From: Barnesiella intestinihominis YIT 11860
Lineage (GTDB): Bacteria > Bacteroidota > Bacteroidia > Bacteroidales > Barnesiellaceae
Direction of reading: 5' to 3'
NCBI RefSeq assembly: GCF_000296465.1
Contig: NZ_JH815204.1
Span: 186,001-250,000 of the forward strand
DNA: 64,000 nucleotides
Positions 1,162-54,932 of the stretch are shown here, in pieces. How positions within the stretch are numbered: position 1 is the stretch's first letter; the number at the start of each line of letters is the position of its first letter. Below the pieces are notes generated by a model. That model was not told the DNA's origin. It made no database searches and worked only from the letters and a program-made list of their open reading frames with translations. Position numbers and translations under genes: made by a program.

Positions 1162-2127
1162 ATGGATTATTTAGAAGAAAAGTATAAAAGAAATTGTCTG
1201 ACTCCGAAAGAATTGGAGGAACTTCAAAGGAAGGTAAGAGAAATGTCGGACGGGCAACTCGAAGATCGGTTATTTAAAGGCTGGCAAGAGGATATACTAG
1301 ATGATAGTTCCGTTTCTGCTGAACGTTTAGCTATACTAAAACGCAAAGTAGATAAAAGCATTTTTCCAAAATATCGTACTAAAATGTTGATATCGTGGGG
1401 ACGAATAGCAGCTGCAATCCTACTTCCAATCTTTGTTTTTGCTACATTTTATTTTTATCAAGAAACGCGTTCTTTGTCAAGTGGGGAAGTTTTATTTTCT
1501 ACATTTGCGGAAGAACATGCTAACTTGACTTTGCCAGACGGGACTAAGGTGACGATGAATTCGAATAGTTCCTTGACATATTCTCCCAAAGATTTTAATC
1601 GAGATGAGCGATGTGTGGATTTTAATGGAGAAGCCTATTTTAATGTAGCTAAAAATAAATCGGTTCCATTTGTTATTACTACAAAGGATTTAACCGTAAG
1701 AGTATTGGGGACTAAATTCAATTTACATGCATATGCTGGAAATGAAACTATGGAGGTTACATTGGAAGAGGGAGAGATATTAGTATCATCTCGAAAGGAA
1801 GAGAAGAAGTTGTTACCTAACCAAAAGGCTGTATTGAATTGTCAAGACGGTAGTATATTAGTATTAGAAGAGAAGAGGCCGGAGGATGCATCTGTATGGA
1901 AAAATAACGAACTAGTTTTTATTGACGAACAGTTGGAGAATGTAATAGTAGCTCTTGAAGAAAATTATAATATTAGTATTCATATAAAGGGGTTAAATAT
2001 AGACAGTGATTTGTTTACTGGAAAAGTGCCTTCTAACGATTTGCTTAATGCATTGGAAATATTGAAATATTCTTATCACATGGATTATTGTGTCGATGCG
2101 AAAGATATTTATTTTTCCAAGAAATAA
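1162..2127 (+). CDS. FecR-family anti-sigma factor with DUF4974 C-terminus
   Basis: A 321-residue inner-membrane anti-sigma regulator. The cytoplasmic N-terminal part (about 1-75) is charged and should bind the sigma factor encoded just upstream. One hydrophobic helix follows (about 78-98, IAAAILLPIFVFATFYF). The periplasmic FecR domain spans roughly 115-220, with LPDGTKVTMNSNSSLTY and the FNGEAYFNVAKN motif, and a DUF4974-like STN-related domain occupies about 255-320. The order sigma, anti-sigma, SusC, SusD supports a role in sensing transport by the neighbouring SusC. A strong terminator follows, so susC is probably transcribed separately from an ECF-dependent promoter. Confidence 0.93.
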   Translation: MDYLEEKYKRNCLTPKELEELQRKVREMSDGQLEDRLFKGWQEDILDDSSVSAERLAILKRKVDKSIFPKYRTKMLISWGRIAAAILLPIFVFATFYFYQETRSLSSGEVLFSTFAEEHANLTLPDGTKVTMNSNSSLTYSPKDFNRDERCVDFNGEAYFNVAKNKSVPFVITTKDLTVRVLGTKFNLHAYAGNETMEVTLEEGEILVSSRKEEKKLLPNQKAVLNCQDGSILVLEEKRPEDASVWKNNELVFIDEQLENVIVALEENYNISIHIKGLNIDSDLFTGKVPSNDLLNALEILKYSYHMDYCVDAKDIYFSKK

Positions 2128-27395: not shown

Positions 27396-27869
27396 TTATT
27401 CGTGGTGATAGGGTTCGTTATTGAGAATAGTCATAGCCCGATAGAGTTGTTCGGTGAAGATGAGGCGAATCATCTGGTGAGAAAAGGTCATCTTTGAAAG
27501 AGAAATTTTTTCTTGTGCTGCATTGTATATGCGTTGGGAAAAACCATAAGGGCCGCCAATGACAAATATCAAGCGTTTGGCAACGTTTGACATTTTCTTT
27601 TCCAAATAGGTGGCGAACTGCGTGGAGGTAAACTCCTTTCCATGTTCATCGAGCAGGACAATGTAATCGCCGGGCAGGAAACTTTTCAAGATGAAATCGG
27701 CTTCTCGCTCTTTTTGTTGGTCGGTACTCAGGCTTTTGGTGTTGCGGAGTTCGGGAATGACTGCAATTTCGAACGGCACATAGTGAGCCAATCGTTTGCT
27801 GTATTCTTCGATTCCTTGTATAAAATGAGATTCGACTGTTTTCCCGACAACCAATAGCACTATTTTCAT
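27396..27869 (-). CDS. rlmH: 23S rRNA pseudouridine1915 N3-methyltransferase RlmH
   Basis: A 157-residue SPOUT methyltransferase that methylates pseudouridine 1915 in helix 69 of 23S rRNA. It opens MKIVLLVVGKT, has YIVLLDEHGKEFTS, the SAM-binding knot FVIGGPYGFSQ, and ends with EQLYRAMTILNNEPYHHE, all diagnostic. Length is typical. It is the first gene of a two-gene unit with the DUF2490 protein. Its promoter lies directly against the start codon. Confidence 0.97.
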   Translation of the reverse strand: MKIVLLVVGKTVESHFIQGIEEYSKRLAHYVPFEIAVIPELRNTKSLSTDQQKEREADFILKSFLPGDYIVLLDEHGKEFTSTQFATYLEKKMSNVAKRLIFVIGGPYGFSQRIYNAAQEKISLSKMTFSHQMIRLIFTEQLYRAMTILNNEPYHHE

Positions 27870-27874
27870 AAGGA

Positions 27875-27904
27875 CAAAGTTACGGCTTTTTTGTATTTAT
27901 CAAA
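27875..27904 (-). promoter_or_regulatory. Promoter for rlmH
   Basis: On the minus strand TTTG (27901-27904), an 18-nt spacer and TAACTTTG (27875-27882) are followed by only five nucleotides before the rlmH ATG, so the mRNA may be leaderless. Confidence 0.65.
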
Positions 27905-27936
27905 GTTGGATTAGTAGTCTCTTTTACTTCGGCATA

Positions 27937-28031
27937 GAAATAATAAAGGGATTCAATACGCGTTTGAATCCCTTACATCCTTTTTAGAGTGCAGATATAG
28001 TGACTTAAATAGCCTATATGGGCACTTTCAG
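27937..28031 (-). ncRNA. Candidate ~90-nt structured RNA downstream of the Abi_2 gene
   Basis: On the minus strand a good promoter ends at 28037, and the predicted transcript starts near 28031. Hairpin 1 pairs AGTGC with GCACT (28022-28026 with 27988-27992) and, after a 2x2 internal loop, ATATAG with CTATAT (28014-28019 with 27995-28000), closing a 13-nt loop. Hairpin 2 (27945-27974) is a 10-bp stem, AAGGGATTCA and its complement, followed by a TTATTATTT tail, a plausible terminator. No open frame of useful length exists. The unit lies between the Abi_2 stop (28071) and the rlmH promoter (27904). The RNA is predicted, not observed; it could be an RNA partner of the Abi protein or an unrelated sRNA. 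Confidence 0.55.
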
Positions 28032-28036
28032 GGGAA

Positions 28037-28068
28037 CAAAGATAAATCAAAGAATCTCGAATTCCAAA
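28037..28068 (-). promoter_or_regulatory. Promoter for the candidate RNA after the Abi_2 gene
   Basis: On the minus strand TTTG (28065-28068), a 20-nt spacer and TATCTTTG (28037-28044) match the Bacteroidales consensus exactly. It begins 2 bp after the Abi_2 stop codon and no coding frame follows it. Confidence 0.65.
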
Positions 28069-28070
28069 TT

Positions 28071-28940
28071 TTATATGATTATTTTTGTGCAATCGGCTAC
28101 AATCTTTTTTGTTTCTTGAGATTGTATATTTTTAAAAGTGCTGATAATTTCGTTATTCAGATCTTCTTTCCGGTTCTTTGATATTGTTCCCAAAATATAT
28201 TTTATCACGGCGATAACGCCATTTATATTGTGGCGACTATCTCTGTCTATATTTGCAGGAATAGCTTTTATGCCTATCGGTATAGATATGTTATAAATAC
28301 AACTACCATGAGCGCACCGATTCCGAATTACTCGTATGGTATCTAAATAGTTAATGAATACGCCGGTTGAGCATCCATAATGCTGGGCGATTATATATTT
28401 TAATCGCTCGCTTTTTATCGATTTATAGAGCGATACGATATTACCTAATGTCATAAATTCAATAGTTTTCCAAGCGGGAGGGTATTTGTCGTCTGGGTAT
28501 CTTTGGTGATGCCGTTTAATAATGGGATTGTCTTGCATTGCTTTATATACCATGATATCGAAGTTACTAATGAAATCGGATTTCATAATATCGGGATTGG
28601 CGAACCATGTTGGAGAGTCTGTATAATAGTTTGATACGGTATATATGATTTGAGTGCGTATATTTACCTCTATTCTATCAAGGGCATTTAGCAATATTCT
28701 TCGGAGTTTAGTGTCAAATTCATATAAATCGTATACACTTTTGAATGTCGTCCCTTTTTTTAGCTTGTGGTCTCGATTGTTTATTCGAGGGAATGTTGTT
28801 TCAAAAGGAAATGAATAGAACCCCAAGCGGTAGTAACCTATGTCAAGTAGAATTTCTTTTGCTTTTTCTTCATTGTCAAATTCCATTCCATGAGATTTAA
28901 GTTTGGCTATTTGTTGGTCTATATTCAGAGCTTTTTTCAT
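28071..28940 (-). CDS. Abi_2 (AbiD/AbiF-like) abortive-infection protein
   Basis: A 289-residue soluble protein of the Abi_2 family. The N-terminus has the family's QIAKLKSHGM and IGYYRLGFYSFPFE blocks, then YDLYEFDTKLRRILLNALDRIEV and TFGNIVSLY-like MTLGNIVSLY. The C-terminal helical part holds IRNRCAHGS, an Rx4H motif as in HEPN ribonucleases. Family members cause growth arrest or cell death on phage infection, with RNA cleavage by HEPN residues proposed. I start at the ATG at 28940 rather than the upstream TTG. It stands alone among housekeeping genes and is AT-richer than they are, suggesting acquisition. No protein antitoxin is adjacent; a candidate structured RNA follows. Confidence 0.88.
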   Translation of the reverse strand: MKKALNIDQQIAKLKSHGMEFDNEEKAKEILLDIGYYRLGFYSFPFETTFPRINNRDHKLKKGTTFKSVYDLYEFDTKLRRILLNALDRIEVNIRTQIIYTVSNYYTDSPTWFANPDIMKSDFISNFDIMVYKAMQDNPIIKRHHQRYPDDKYPPAWKTIEFMTLGNIVSLYKSIKSERLKYIIAQHYGCSTGVFINYLDTIRVIRNRCAHGSCIYNISIPIGIKAIPANIDRDSRHNINGVIAVIKYILGTISKNRKEDLNNEIISTFKNIQSQETKKIVADCTKIII

Positions 28941-29064
28941 GGTACTCAAATTTTTTTGTAAATGTAATATTTTGTAAAGAATTAGTGGGCGGTTTAAAGG
29001 TTATATTTTTGATTTTACAATAGAGTCGGGATTAATTTGTAACTTTGCAATCAATTGATAATTG

Positions 29065-29072
29065 TATTTTTG
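29065..29072 (+). promoter_or_regulatory. Candidate -7 box for nadC
   Basis: TATTTTTG lies 25 bp before the nadC ATG, with TTTG at 29044-29047 (17-nt spacer, slightly short). A second TAACTTTG (29040-29047) overlaps the latter, so two start sites are possible. Confidence 0.45.
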
Positions 29073-29097
29073 AGAATAAATGAAAACGTATTGAAAG

Positions 29098-29946
29098 ATG
29101 AAAACGAAAGAGCAGTTGATAGATGAATTGATAGATTTGGCTTTTGCCGAAGATATAGGAGATGGTGACCACACTACTTTGTGTTGTATCCCGGATACGG
29201 CGATGGGGAAGTCGAGGTTGTTGATCAAGGAGCCGGGTATCTTGGCCGGAGTAGAGATTGCCCGAAAAATATTCCACCGTTTCGATCCCGATTTGAAAAT
29301 GACGGTTTATATCGAGGACGGGACTGCGGTAAAACCCGGCGATGTGGCTTTTGTGGTCGAAGGACGCGTACAATCATTATTGCAAACCGAGCGTCTTATG
29401 CTCAATGTGATGCAGCGCATGAGCGGTATCGCTACGATGACTCACCGGTATGTGAAAAAACTCGAAGGATTGCATACTCGCATTCTCGATACCCGCAAGA
29501 CAACTCCGGGCATGCGTATGCTCGAAAAAGAGGCTGTGAAGATAGGTGGTGGCGTGAATCATCGTATCGGATTGTTCGACATGATTTTGCTGAAAGATAA
29601 TCATGTGGATTTTGCCGGTGGTATAGAGAACGCTATCTCTCGTTGTCATGATTATTTAAAGGCCAAAGGCAAGGATTTGAAAATTGAGATAGAGGTGCGT
29701 AATTTGGACGAATTGAAAGAGGTTATGCGAGTGGGCGGTGTGGACCGTATTATGCTCGATAATTTCTCGCCTGAATTGACAAGAGAGGCTGTGAAAATTG
29801 TGGGTGGGAAATATGAAATAGAGTCTTCGGGAGGTATTACTTTCGATACGATTCGAGATTACGCTGAGAGTGGTGTCGATTTTGTCTCGGTGGGAGCTCT
29901 CACTCATTCGGTAAAAGGTCTCGATATGAGCTTTAAGGCTTGTTGA
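29098..29946 (+). CDS. nadC: Nicotinate-nucleotide pyrophosphorylase (carboxylating)
   Basis: A 282-residue quinolinate phosphoribosyltransferase, making nicotinate mononucleotide from quinolinate and PRPP in de novo NAD synthesis. Diagnostic blocks are EDIGDGDHTT at the start, LNVMQRMSGIATMTHRYV, LDTRKTTPGMRMLEKEAV, GGGVNHRIGLFDMILLKDNH (split), IEIEVRNLDEL, IMLDNFSP, and ESSGGITFDTI near the end. The family's arginine and lysine substrate ligands are present. nadA and nadB are not nearby in the window. Confidence 0.97.
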   Translation: MKTKEQLIDELIDLAFAEDIGDGDHTTLCCIPDTAMGKSRLLIKEPGILAGVEIARKIFHRFDPDLKMTVYIEDGTAVKPGDVAFVVEGRVQSLLQTERLMLNVMQRMSGIATMTHRYVKKLEGLHTRILDTRKTTPGMRMLEKEAVKIGGGVNHRIGLFDMILLKDNHVDFAGGIENAISRCHDYLKAKGKDLKIEIEVRNLDELKEVMRVGGVDRIMLDNFSPELTREAVKIVGGKYEIESSGGITFDTIRDYAESGVDFVSVGALTHSVKGLDMSFKAC

Positions 29947-54639: not shown

Positions 54640-54932
54640 AACATTGCTTGTTTTGTTTTTCCTACTCTTTTGATGGTTTTCGGAAATTCCATTAATAATA
54701 TAATTGCAAATATATTTAATAGATTCTAATTCTAAAATATTTTATTTAAAATAATGCAATAAAACTATATATTATAGTGTGTATGAGTTTGGGGACTTTT
54801 TTAACAAATCGCAAACATAACTTGCATTTGTCTCTGGTTTGCACTACATTTGCGGTGTCGAATGTGAGCTGTGGCTTTGTTCGATAACCTTTTTTTGATA
54901 AAAGCGTTTTTGCTTATCCTTTCATGGAAAAT

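Follow-up and report, generated by a model that had tools for sequence, protein, structure and literature searches.

The window, a stretch of 64,000 nucleotides from Barnesiella intestinihominis YIT 11860, contains an Abi_2 gene of the AbiD/F type and, beyond its stop codon, the promoter and body of a predicted small RNA (Table 1). In six of eight congeners the same rlmH-nadC gap measures only ~120-220 bp, with a DUF2490-rlmH block followed by nadC and no Abi_2 between them, and a search for an Abi_2 gene in all eight congeners returned none. The cassette of Abi_2 and RNA is an insertion between rlmH and nadC. In two congeners (L112 and L113) a response-regulator gene, not rlmH, precedes nadC. 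The window also matches the Bacteroidales small SRP RNA of Rfam and, at 54659-54693 on the minus strand, the Rfam DUF805b RNA (38.9 bits).

Table 1. Features of the Abi_2-RNA cassette and its flanks in the window; A1 and R1 are the RNA alignment and covariance model described in the text.
Feature	Position	Strand	Basis
SPOUT methyltransferase gene (presumably rlmH), flank	27396..27869	minus	PF02590
rlmH-nadC gap, ~1.2 kb, only Abi_2 and RNA inside	27870..29097		congener comparison
Predicted small RNA, ~94 nt, ends inferred	27940..28033	minus	fold z, R1 match
Second hairpin, terminator-like, 11 bp, 7-nt loop	27946..27974	minus	fold
Conserved A-rich linker	27975..27987	minus	2 invariant and 1 nearly invariant A in A1
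Core hairpin	27988..28026	minus	P1 28022-28026 with 27988-27992 (5 bp); covariation
-7 element TATCTTTG of RNA promoter	28037..28044	minus	sequence
-33 element TTTG of RNA promoter	28065..28068	minus	sequence
Abi_2 (AbiD/F-type HEPN) gene	28071..28940	minus	ATG matching start of relatives (MKKA); ORF
HEPN Rx4H motif RNRCAH	28308..28325	minus	aligned with RNSCCH of 8vz6
nadC (quinolinate phosphoribosyltransferase), flank	29098..29946	plus	PF01729 and PF02749

The Abi_2 protein, for which a TTG at 28949 could also serve as start, scores 158.6 bits (E 2.8e-46) with the Pfam family Abi_2 (PF07751) against a curated cut-off of 25.6 and so belongs to this family; the PADLOC AbiD model gives 197.3 bits. 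An earlier note on this DNA had recognised an Rx4H motif in the protein, and this HEPN signature is intact, with R209, N210, C212 and H214 invariant in an alignment of 32 Abi_2 proteins. Similarity extends to PbAbiF of the PbAbiF-AbiFr pair, reportedly a Prevotellaceae system (PDB 8vz6) and said to come from the work of Zilberzwige-Tal et al. in 2025; PbAbiF scores 102 bits with the window protein and 157 bits with the profile. The product is probably a homodimeric HEPN RNase.

The RNA promoter, TTTG-N20-TATCTTTG (28068-28037, minus strand), begins two bases past the Abi_2 stop codon, where the earlier note had placed it; the end of the gene at 28071 and a hairpin of 5 and 6 bp with a 13-nt loop were likewise located correctly. 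Excerpts of PMC7366714 give TAnnTTTG at -7, together with a TTTG around -33, as the promoter consensus of B. fragilis. The strict TAnnTTTG lies 4-18 nt ahead of P1 in 44 of 46 RNAs, TTTG is found at the -33 spacing in 23 of the 46, and the full -7 element is located around the Abi_2 stop codon in 33 of the 37 members with a 3' RNA. A strict TAnnTTTG also occurs within 130 nt before the Abi_2 start in 23 of these 37 members, with starts chosen by a simple rule, against 2.5 expected from shuffles; upstream of the start of the window Abi_2 itself there is none. These patterns suggest that toxin and RNA have separate promoters in most members of the clade. A sigma-70 scan gave 8 sites against 7.9 ± 2.9 by chance.

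In the core hairpin, P1 is followed by P2, a 6-bp stem (28014-28019 paired with 27995-28000) whose loop measures 13 nt in the window and, in the majority of close relatives, 9 nt. For the 94-nt stretch 28033-27940 the folding energy is -26.7 kcal/mol (z -4.13, none of 200 shuffles as good), while for a longer stretch of 141 nt (28070-27930) z is -3.08 with 3 of 200 shuffles as good. The terminator hairpin, given 10 bp earlier, has 11 pairs. Single folds hinted that leader and linker might pair into a closing stem, but this was rejected, the mean for real pairs being 6.30 against 6.38 ± 0.45 after re-pairing (37 RNAs), with 292 of 500 re-pairings as high as the real pairs. By eye, GTC ends the loop of the second hairpin in 17 of 46 RNAs, the window not being one of them (L030, L031, L033-L035, L037, L038, L040-L043, L045, L051, L068, L070, L076 and L077), as it does the P2 loop, giving the impression of a repeated motif; a script's GTCG test confined to the second-hairpin loop gave 0.

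Conservation of this structure was assessed in alignment A1, which comprises 30 RNAs including that of the window; they were chosen for a pattern of the GTGC...GCAC type close to the stop codon, and near-copies were removed. In A1, 95.1% of the cells are paired, while slid controls reach at most 55.1%; the covariation score is 0.481 against 0.179 ± 0.019 for shuffled alignments (0 of 500 as high), and 55 cells have both sides changed against 11.4 after shuffling. RNAalifold returned the identical 11 pairs unprompted. The invariance of P1 is partly the result of selection, because the rows were picked by the pattern just mentioned; this does not hold for the covariation of P2, where double-sided changes occur at all six pairs. 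The compensatory changes sought 3' of Abi_2 homologues are therefore present, and the hairpins are conserved. A GUC of the loop and A residues of the linker are also nearly invariant. A second alignment, A3, of 17 rows absent from A1, with L017 and L022 closely resembling members of it, is 84.0% paired against at most 50.8% in slid versions. Among 17 close pairs of loci, identity is 97% in the core, 96% in the linker, 88% in the second hairpin and 73% in the 10-nt leader, and it drops to 63% just past the RNA, so conservation ends beyond the second hairpin. RNA and protein distances are correlated (28 pairs of partners; Spearman 0.484, 0 of 999 as high), a result which shared descent alone could give.

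Protein searches detected 40 loci in GTDB contigs and 14 in IMG/VR, as well as Abi_2 in 55 of 393 Bacteroidales genomes. The clade of the window consists of 59 loci, many of them near-copies: 39 from GTDB contigs, 13 from IMG/VR and seven whole genomes including that of the window. Left out of it were L054 and L081 (62 and 76 bits with the profile), the fragmentary L089, close to the end of a contig, and the lower-scoring Abi_2 of Bacteroidales genomes. Two clade loci (L073 and L079) end at most 3 bases from the gene, which leaves 57 testable. The RNA was found at every one of the 57, a count that takes in near-copies and rows used to train the model; these are 41 loci (29 and the window having trained the covariance model R1, so that they match by construction), nine from IMG/VR and seven whole genomes. 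The weaker matches are L071 and L072 at E 0.005, and L080 at E 0.44, recognised by eye. The RNA lies 3' of Abi_2 in 52 of the 57 loci and 5' in five (L048, L071, L072, L080 and L087), so that separate promotion is not universal; these five RNAs have a terminator-like hairpin of their own, and in the tree the 5'-RNA members form one sub-clade within the window clade (99/98, 4 rows).

R1, built from the 30 rows of A1, matches the window at 28033-27977 with 57.5 bits, the window being among its training rows, and has a single match in the window genome. Over the 393 Bacteroidales genomes five matches were obtained at E 0.001, four of them within ~200 bp 3' of Abi_2 (in G033, the second of two RNAs), while in the fifth the match begins at 100 bases from the end of its contig, which leaves no room for the gene. 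Across 395 genomes of the whole phylum, scanned with strict filters, R1 found the window's own RNA only; in the order sample it found four of seven clade genomes, and a Pedobacter locus (L047) came from the protein search. Neither a repeated RNA motif as in type III toxin-antitoxin systems nor a tandem repeat or array was found at the window. Among the neighbours, counted from frames of at least 70 aa with some stretches shorter, no family occurs in more than 4 of 39 loci, which indicates that there is no protein partner and agrees with the lack of a protein antitoxin neighbour remarked on earlier.

Several loci have unusual arrangements. Two different RNAs, each with a promoter and a second hairpin, are located in a row 3' of one Abi_2 in L003 (1331-1277 and 1202-1149, minus strand) and in L086 (2495-2549 and 2625-2678, plus strand). 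L027 has an orphan RNA copy (1757-1808, plus strand) without a clear promoter 1.2 kb upstream of Abi_2 and with no Abi_2 upstream of the copy itself, perhaps a relic. In L019 (3882-4115) 232 bp separate the stop codon from the RNA, where ~50 are usual, and the promoter is still directly ahead of the RNA.

Whether the RNA belongs to the abiF class of Rfam (RF03085), a point raised but left undecided by the earlier note, was examined with covariance models. RF03085 has no match at the window locus even at E 10 (none at E 1 over 1851 bases), and none at gathering level beside the gene in 20 clade loci; with Rfam 15 as a whole, the RNAs of the window and 20 relatives gave chance-level matches, none at gathering level. 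RF03085 does occur at eight places in seven of 24 genomes with clade loci, away from those loci; five are accompanied by an Abi_2 detected by the profile, two are cut by contig ends and one (L058) has none. R1 matched none of these eight places, nor any of the other-group Abi_2 loci examined. By the model searches the clade RNA is a family other than RF03085; with its RNA 3' of the gene, not between promoter and start, the window locus is not of the RF03085-AbiF type. By eye, the RF03085 loop AGCC...GAUGC resembles GGCCCYGAUGC in L049, L050 and the first copy of L003, a likeness that would favour distant homology over an unrelated RNA class.

The proteins divide in the same way. A tree of 71 Abi_2, from which the partial L029, L051 and L053 were omitted, separates 44 members of the window clade from 27 others at 100/100. 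The RF03085 RNA and its look-alike sit 5' of the other Abi_2, the group nearest PbAbiF: 8vz6, which is not a row of the tree, scores 320, 258, 211 and 199 bits with four of its members, and bit scores and tree agree that the window protein does not group with PbAbiF. Seven of the 27 have RF03085 by Rfam and 18 a look-alike by stem search, while L103 and L108 have neither. As a control, a strict -7 element followed after 9-13 nt by a stem with at least six G-C pairs was sought upstream of the genes, and it was seen in 20 of the 27, against 0 of 44 window-clade genes and 0 of 216 shuffles. The W-rich C-terminal tail of 8vz6 is found by pattern in 23 of the 27, with variants in the remaining four, and in none of the 44 window-clade proteins (L079 being cut short). 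When five outside Abi_2 were added, from a Lactococcus prophage and from E. coli, Actibacterium, Fusobacteria and Chryseobacterium plasmids, the window clade remained whole (SH-aLRT 100), while the other group was not one clade (4 changes) and some branches were long. A sub-threshold RF03085-like 5' hairpin, with outer stem, A and CGC/GCG inner stem, precedes most other Bacteroidales Abi_2 (L004, L005, L007-L009 and L090-L107) and was seen by eye also in L123 and L124, from the Actibacterium and Fusobacteria plasmids; the RF03085 model may need widening.

Taken by analogy with its relatives, the cassette is quite probably a two-part system, in which an Abi_2 HEPN RNase is silenced by an RNA antitoxin in the manner of a type III toxin-antitoxin or an abortive-infection module. 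Free Abi_2 would stall the cell through RNA cleavage. The ~94-nt RNA would be transcribed independently, its promoter lying immediately behind the Abi_2 stop codon, and is probably also part of the 3' end of the Abi_2 mRNA; adopting its conserved interrupted hairpin, it would bind and silence Abi_2, as AbiFr and RCd22 do for AbiF. With separate promoters for toxin and RNA, the brake would rest on continued RNA supply and not on a terminator before the toxin, and the RNase may be freed by loss of that supply, for example when a phage takes over transcription, or by disruption of the complex. According to excerpts of PMC12373285, the Abi_2 protein of a relative is toxic and depends on R and H of Rx4H, and the RNA of this relative binds and neutralises the protein; in those of PMC12737573, one AbiFr is bound per PbAbiF monomer. 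At the locus and in its clade, conservation, covariation, linkage, the promoter pattern, the intact invariant motif, the clade structure and the insertion of the cassette are directly supported. Transcription, binding, neutralisation, trigger and anti-phage effect of the cassette are inferred. The retained Rx4H motif together with a cognate RNA makes neutralisation by the RNA the most likely function. Against it count the membership of the RNA outside the proven AbiF-neutralising family, its 3' position and single core hairpin in the window, as well as the five loci with a 5' RNA, the window Abi_2 without a strict promoter, and the orphan RNA copy of L027.

Other explanations were considered. 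The hairpins could be a 3'-UTR element of the Abi_2 mRNA, serving stability, processing or autoregulation by Abi_2 binding, and not a free RNA; the 3' position in 52 of 57 loci and the terminator-like hairpin behind it would suit this, but the near-constant distance of the strict -7 element before P1, the five 5'-placed RNAs with a terminator-like hairpin of their own and the two loci with tandem promoter-RNA-hairpin units make it unlikely. Still less likely is a role of the RNA as positive cofactor or sensor, activating Abi_2 upon a phage product, for example: the conserved loop and linker suit a bound activator and a bound silencer alike, but in the excerpts of PMC12373285 and PMC12737573 the RNA of the relatives studied neutralises. 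A window copy that is a passive relic without present function would explain the absence of the gene in the eight congeners searched and of a strict promoter for the window Abi_2, but the open frame, intact motif, promoter and fold render this highly improbable.

The earlier note had proposed an RNA-regulated or RNA-guided defence module. Its regulatory half is supported by conservation, covariation, promoter and linkage. The guided half, in which, as with Cas13, base pairing of the RNA would steer Abi_2 towards target RNAs, could draw on the HEPN ancestry shared with Cas13 (excerpts of PMC12373285 and PMC12737573) and on the leader as the most variable part of the RNA; but only this leader varies more than the rest, core, linker and second hairpin are conserved, and there is neither a long variable segment nor, at the window, an array, so that guidance is slightly more improbable even than a relic. 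Least credible of all is an antisense RNA acting on the Abi_2 mRNA as in type I systems, for which linkage is the one argument: among 32 cases an RNA pairs better with its own start region than with the mean of others in 16 (means -28.2 against -27.0 kcal/mol), and for the window RNA its own start region comes 23rd of 32. On these energies an antisense action at the toxin start was rejected.

Within the preferred reading, of an RNase silenced by an RNA antitoxin, a broader proposal can be put forward tentatively, with somewhat more chance of being wrong than right: that this Abi_2 clade, mainly of Bacteroidales, has a second class of RNA antitoxin, non-homologous to the abiF RNA, 3' of the toxin gene and self-transcribed. 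If so, one toxin fold would be held by two unrelated RNAs, toxin expression would be untied from RNA termination, and the trigger would be set by RNA turnover in place of read-through. In the literature searched, no RNA 3' of Abi_2 came up; the main AbiF-RNA paper of 2025 has its own covariance models, named in the excerpt of PMC12804078, so the clade RNA may already be covered there.

RNA-held AbiF proteins are thought ancestral to Cas13. A related clade with another RNA, gene order and promoter represents a natural experiment on the protein changes that accompany a change of RNA, and bears on whether a HEPN toxin can be held without cis attenuation. The cassette of ~1 kb seems complete, which makes toxicity, RNA specificity and trigger directly testable, and R1 provides a means to annotate a small-RNA gene missed by Rfam 15.

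Among known systems, PbAbiF-AbiFr likewise combines an Abi_2 HEPN RNase bearing Rx4H with an adjacent small structured RNA, with an interrupted hairpin in both, but differs in its W-rich C-terminal tail and in its RNA, that of the window being of another family and usually 3' in its clade. AbiFCd-RCd22 of a C. difficile prophage, as described in excerpts of PMC12373285, has RNQCAH where the window protein has RNRCAH, and its small RNA also ends in a terminator-like hairpin; unlike the window, it carries two RF03085 motifs in an RNA located 5', where it separates promoter and toxin gene, and the toxin arises by read-through of the RCd22 terminator, whereas the window RNA is 3' with its own promoter. 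RF03085 RNAs resemble the window RNA in their Abi_2 partner, outer and inner stem, one-sided bulge and, in Bacteroidales, TAnnTTTG promoter. However, the models match in neither direction, stem lengths and conserved letters are different, and in RF03085 the T-run ahead of the gene follows on the hairpin itself, while in the window a T-run follows on a separate second hairpin.

ToxIN and other type III systems are similar by analogy, as a protein RNase with an RNA antitoxin, but have a toxin fold reported to be unrelated and, in the excerpts of PMC12373285, a repeat array and terminator before the toxin; an RNA ahead of the gene is confined to 5 of 57 clade loci, and the window lacks the type III order of antitoxin, terminator and toxin. 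Cas13 has a published HEPN ancestry in common with AbiF (excerpts of PMC12373285 and PMC12737573), while the window encodes a single short protein, with neither an array nor a guide segment found. RNA-held Abi_2 toxins are known; the cassette of the window differs in its RNA family and in where this RNA lies and how it is promoted.
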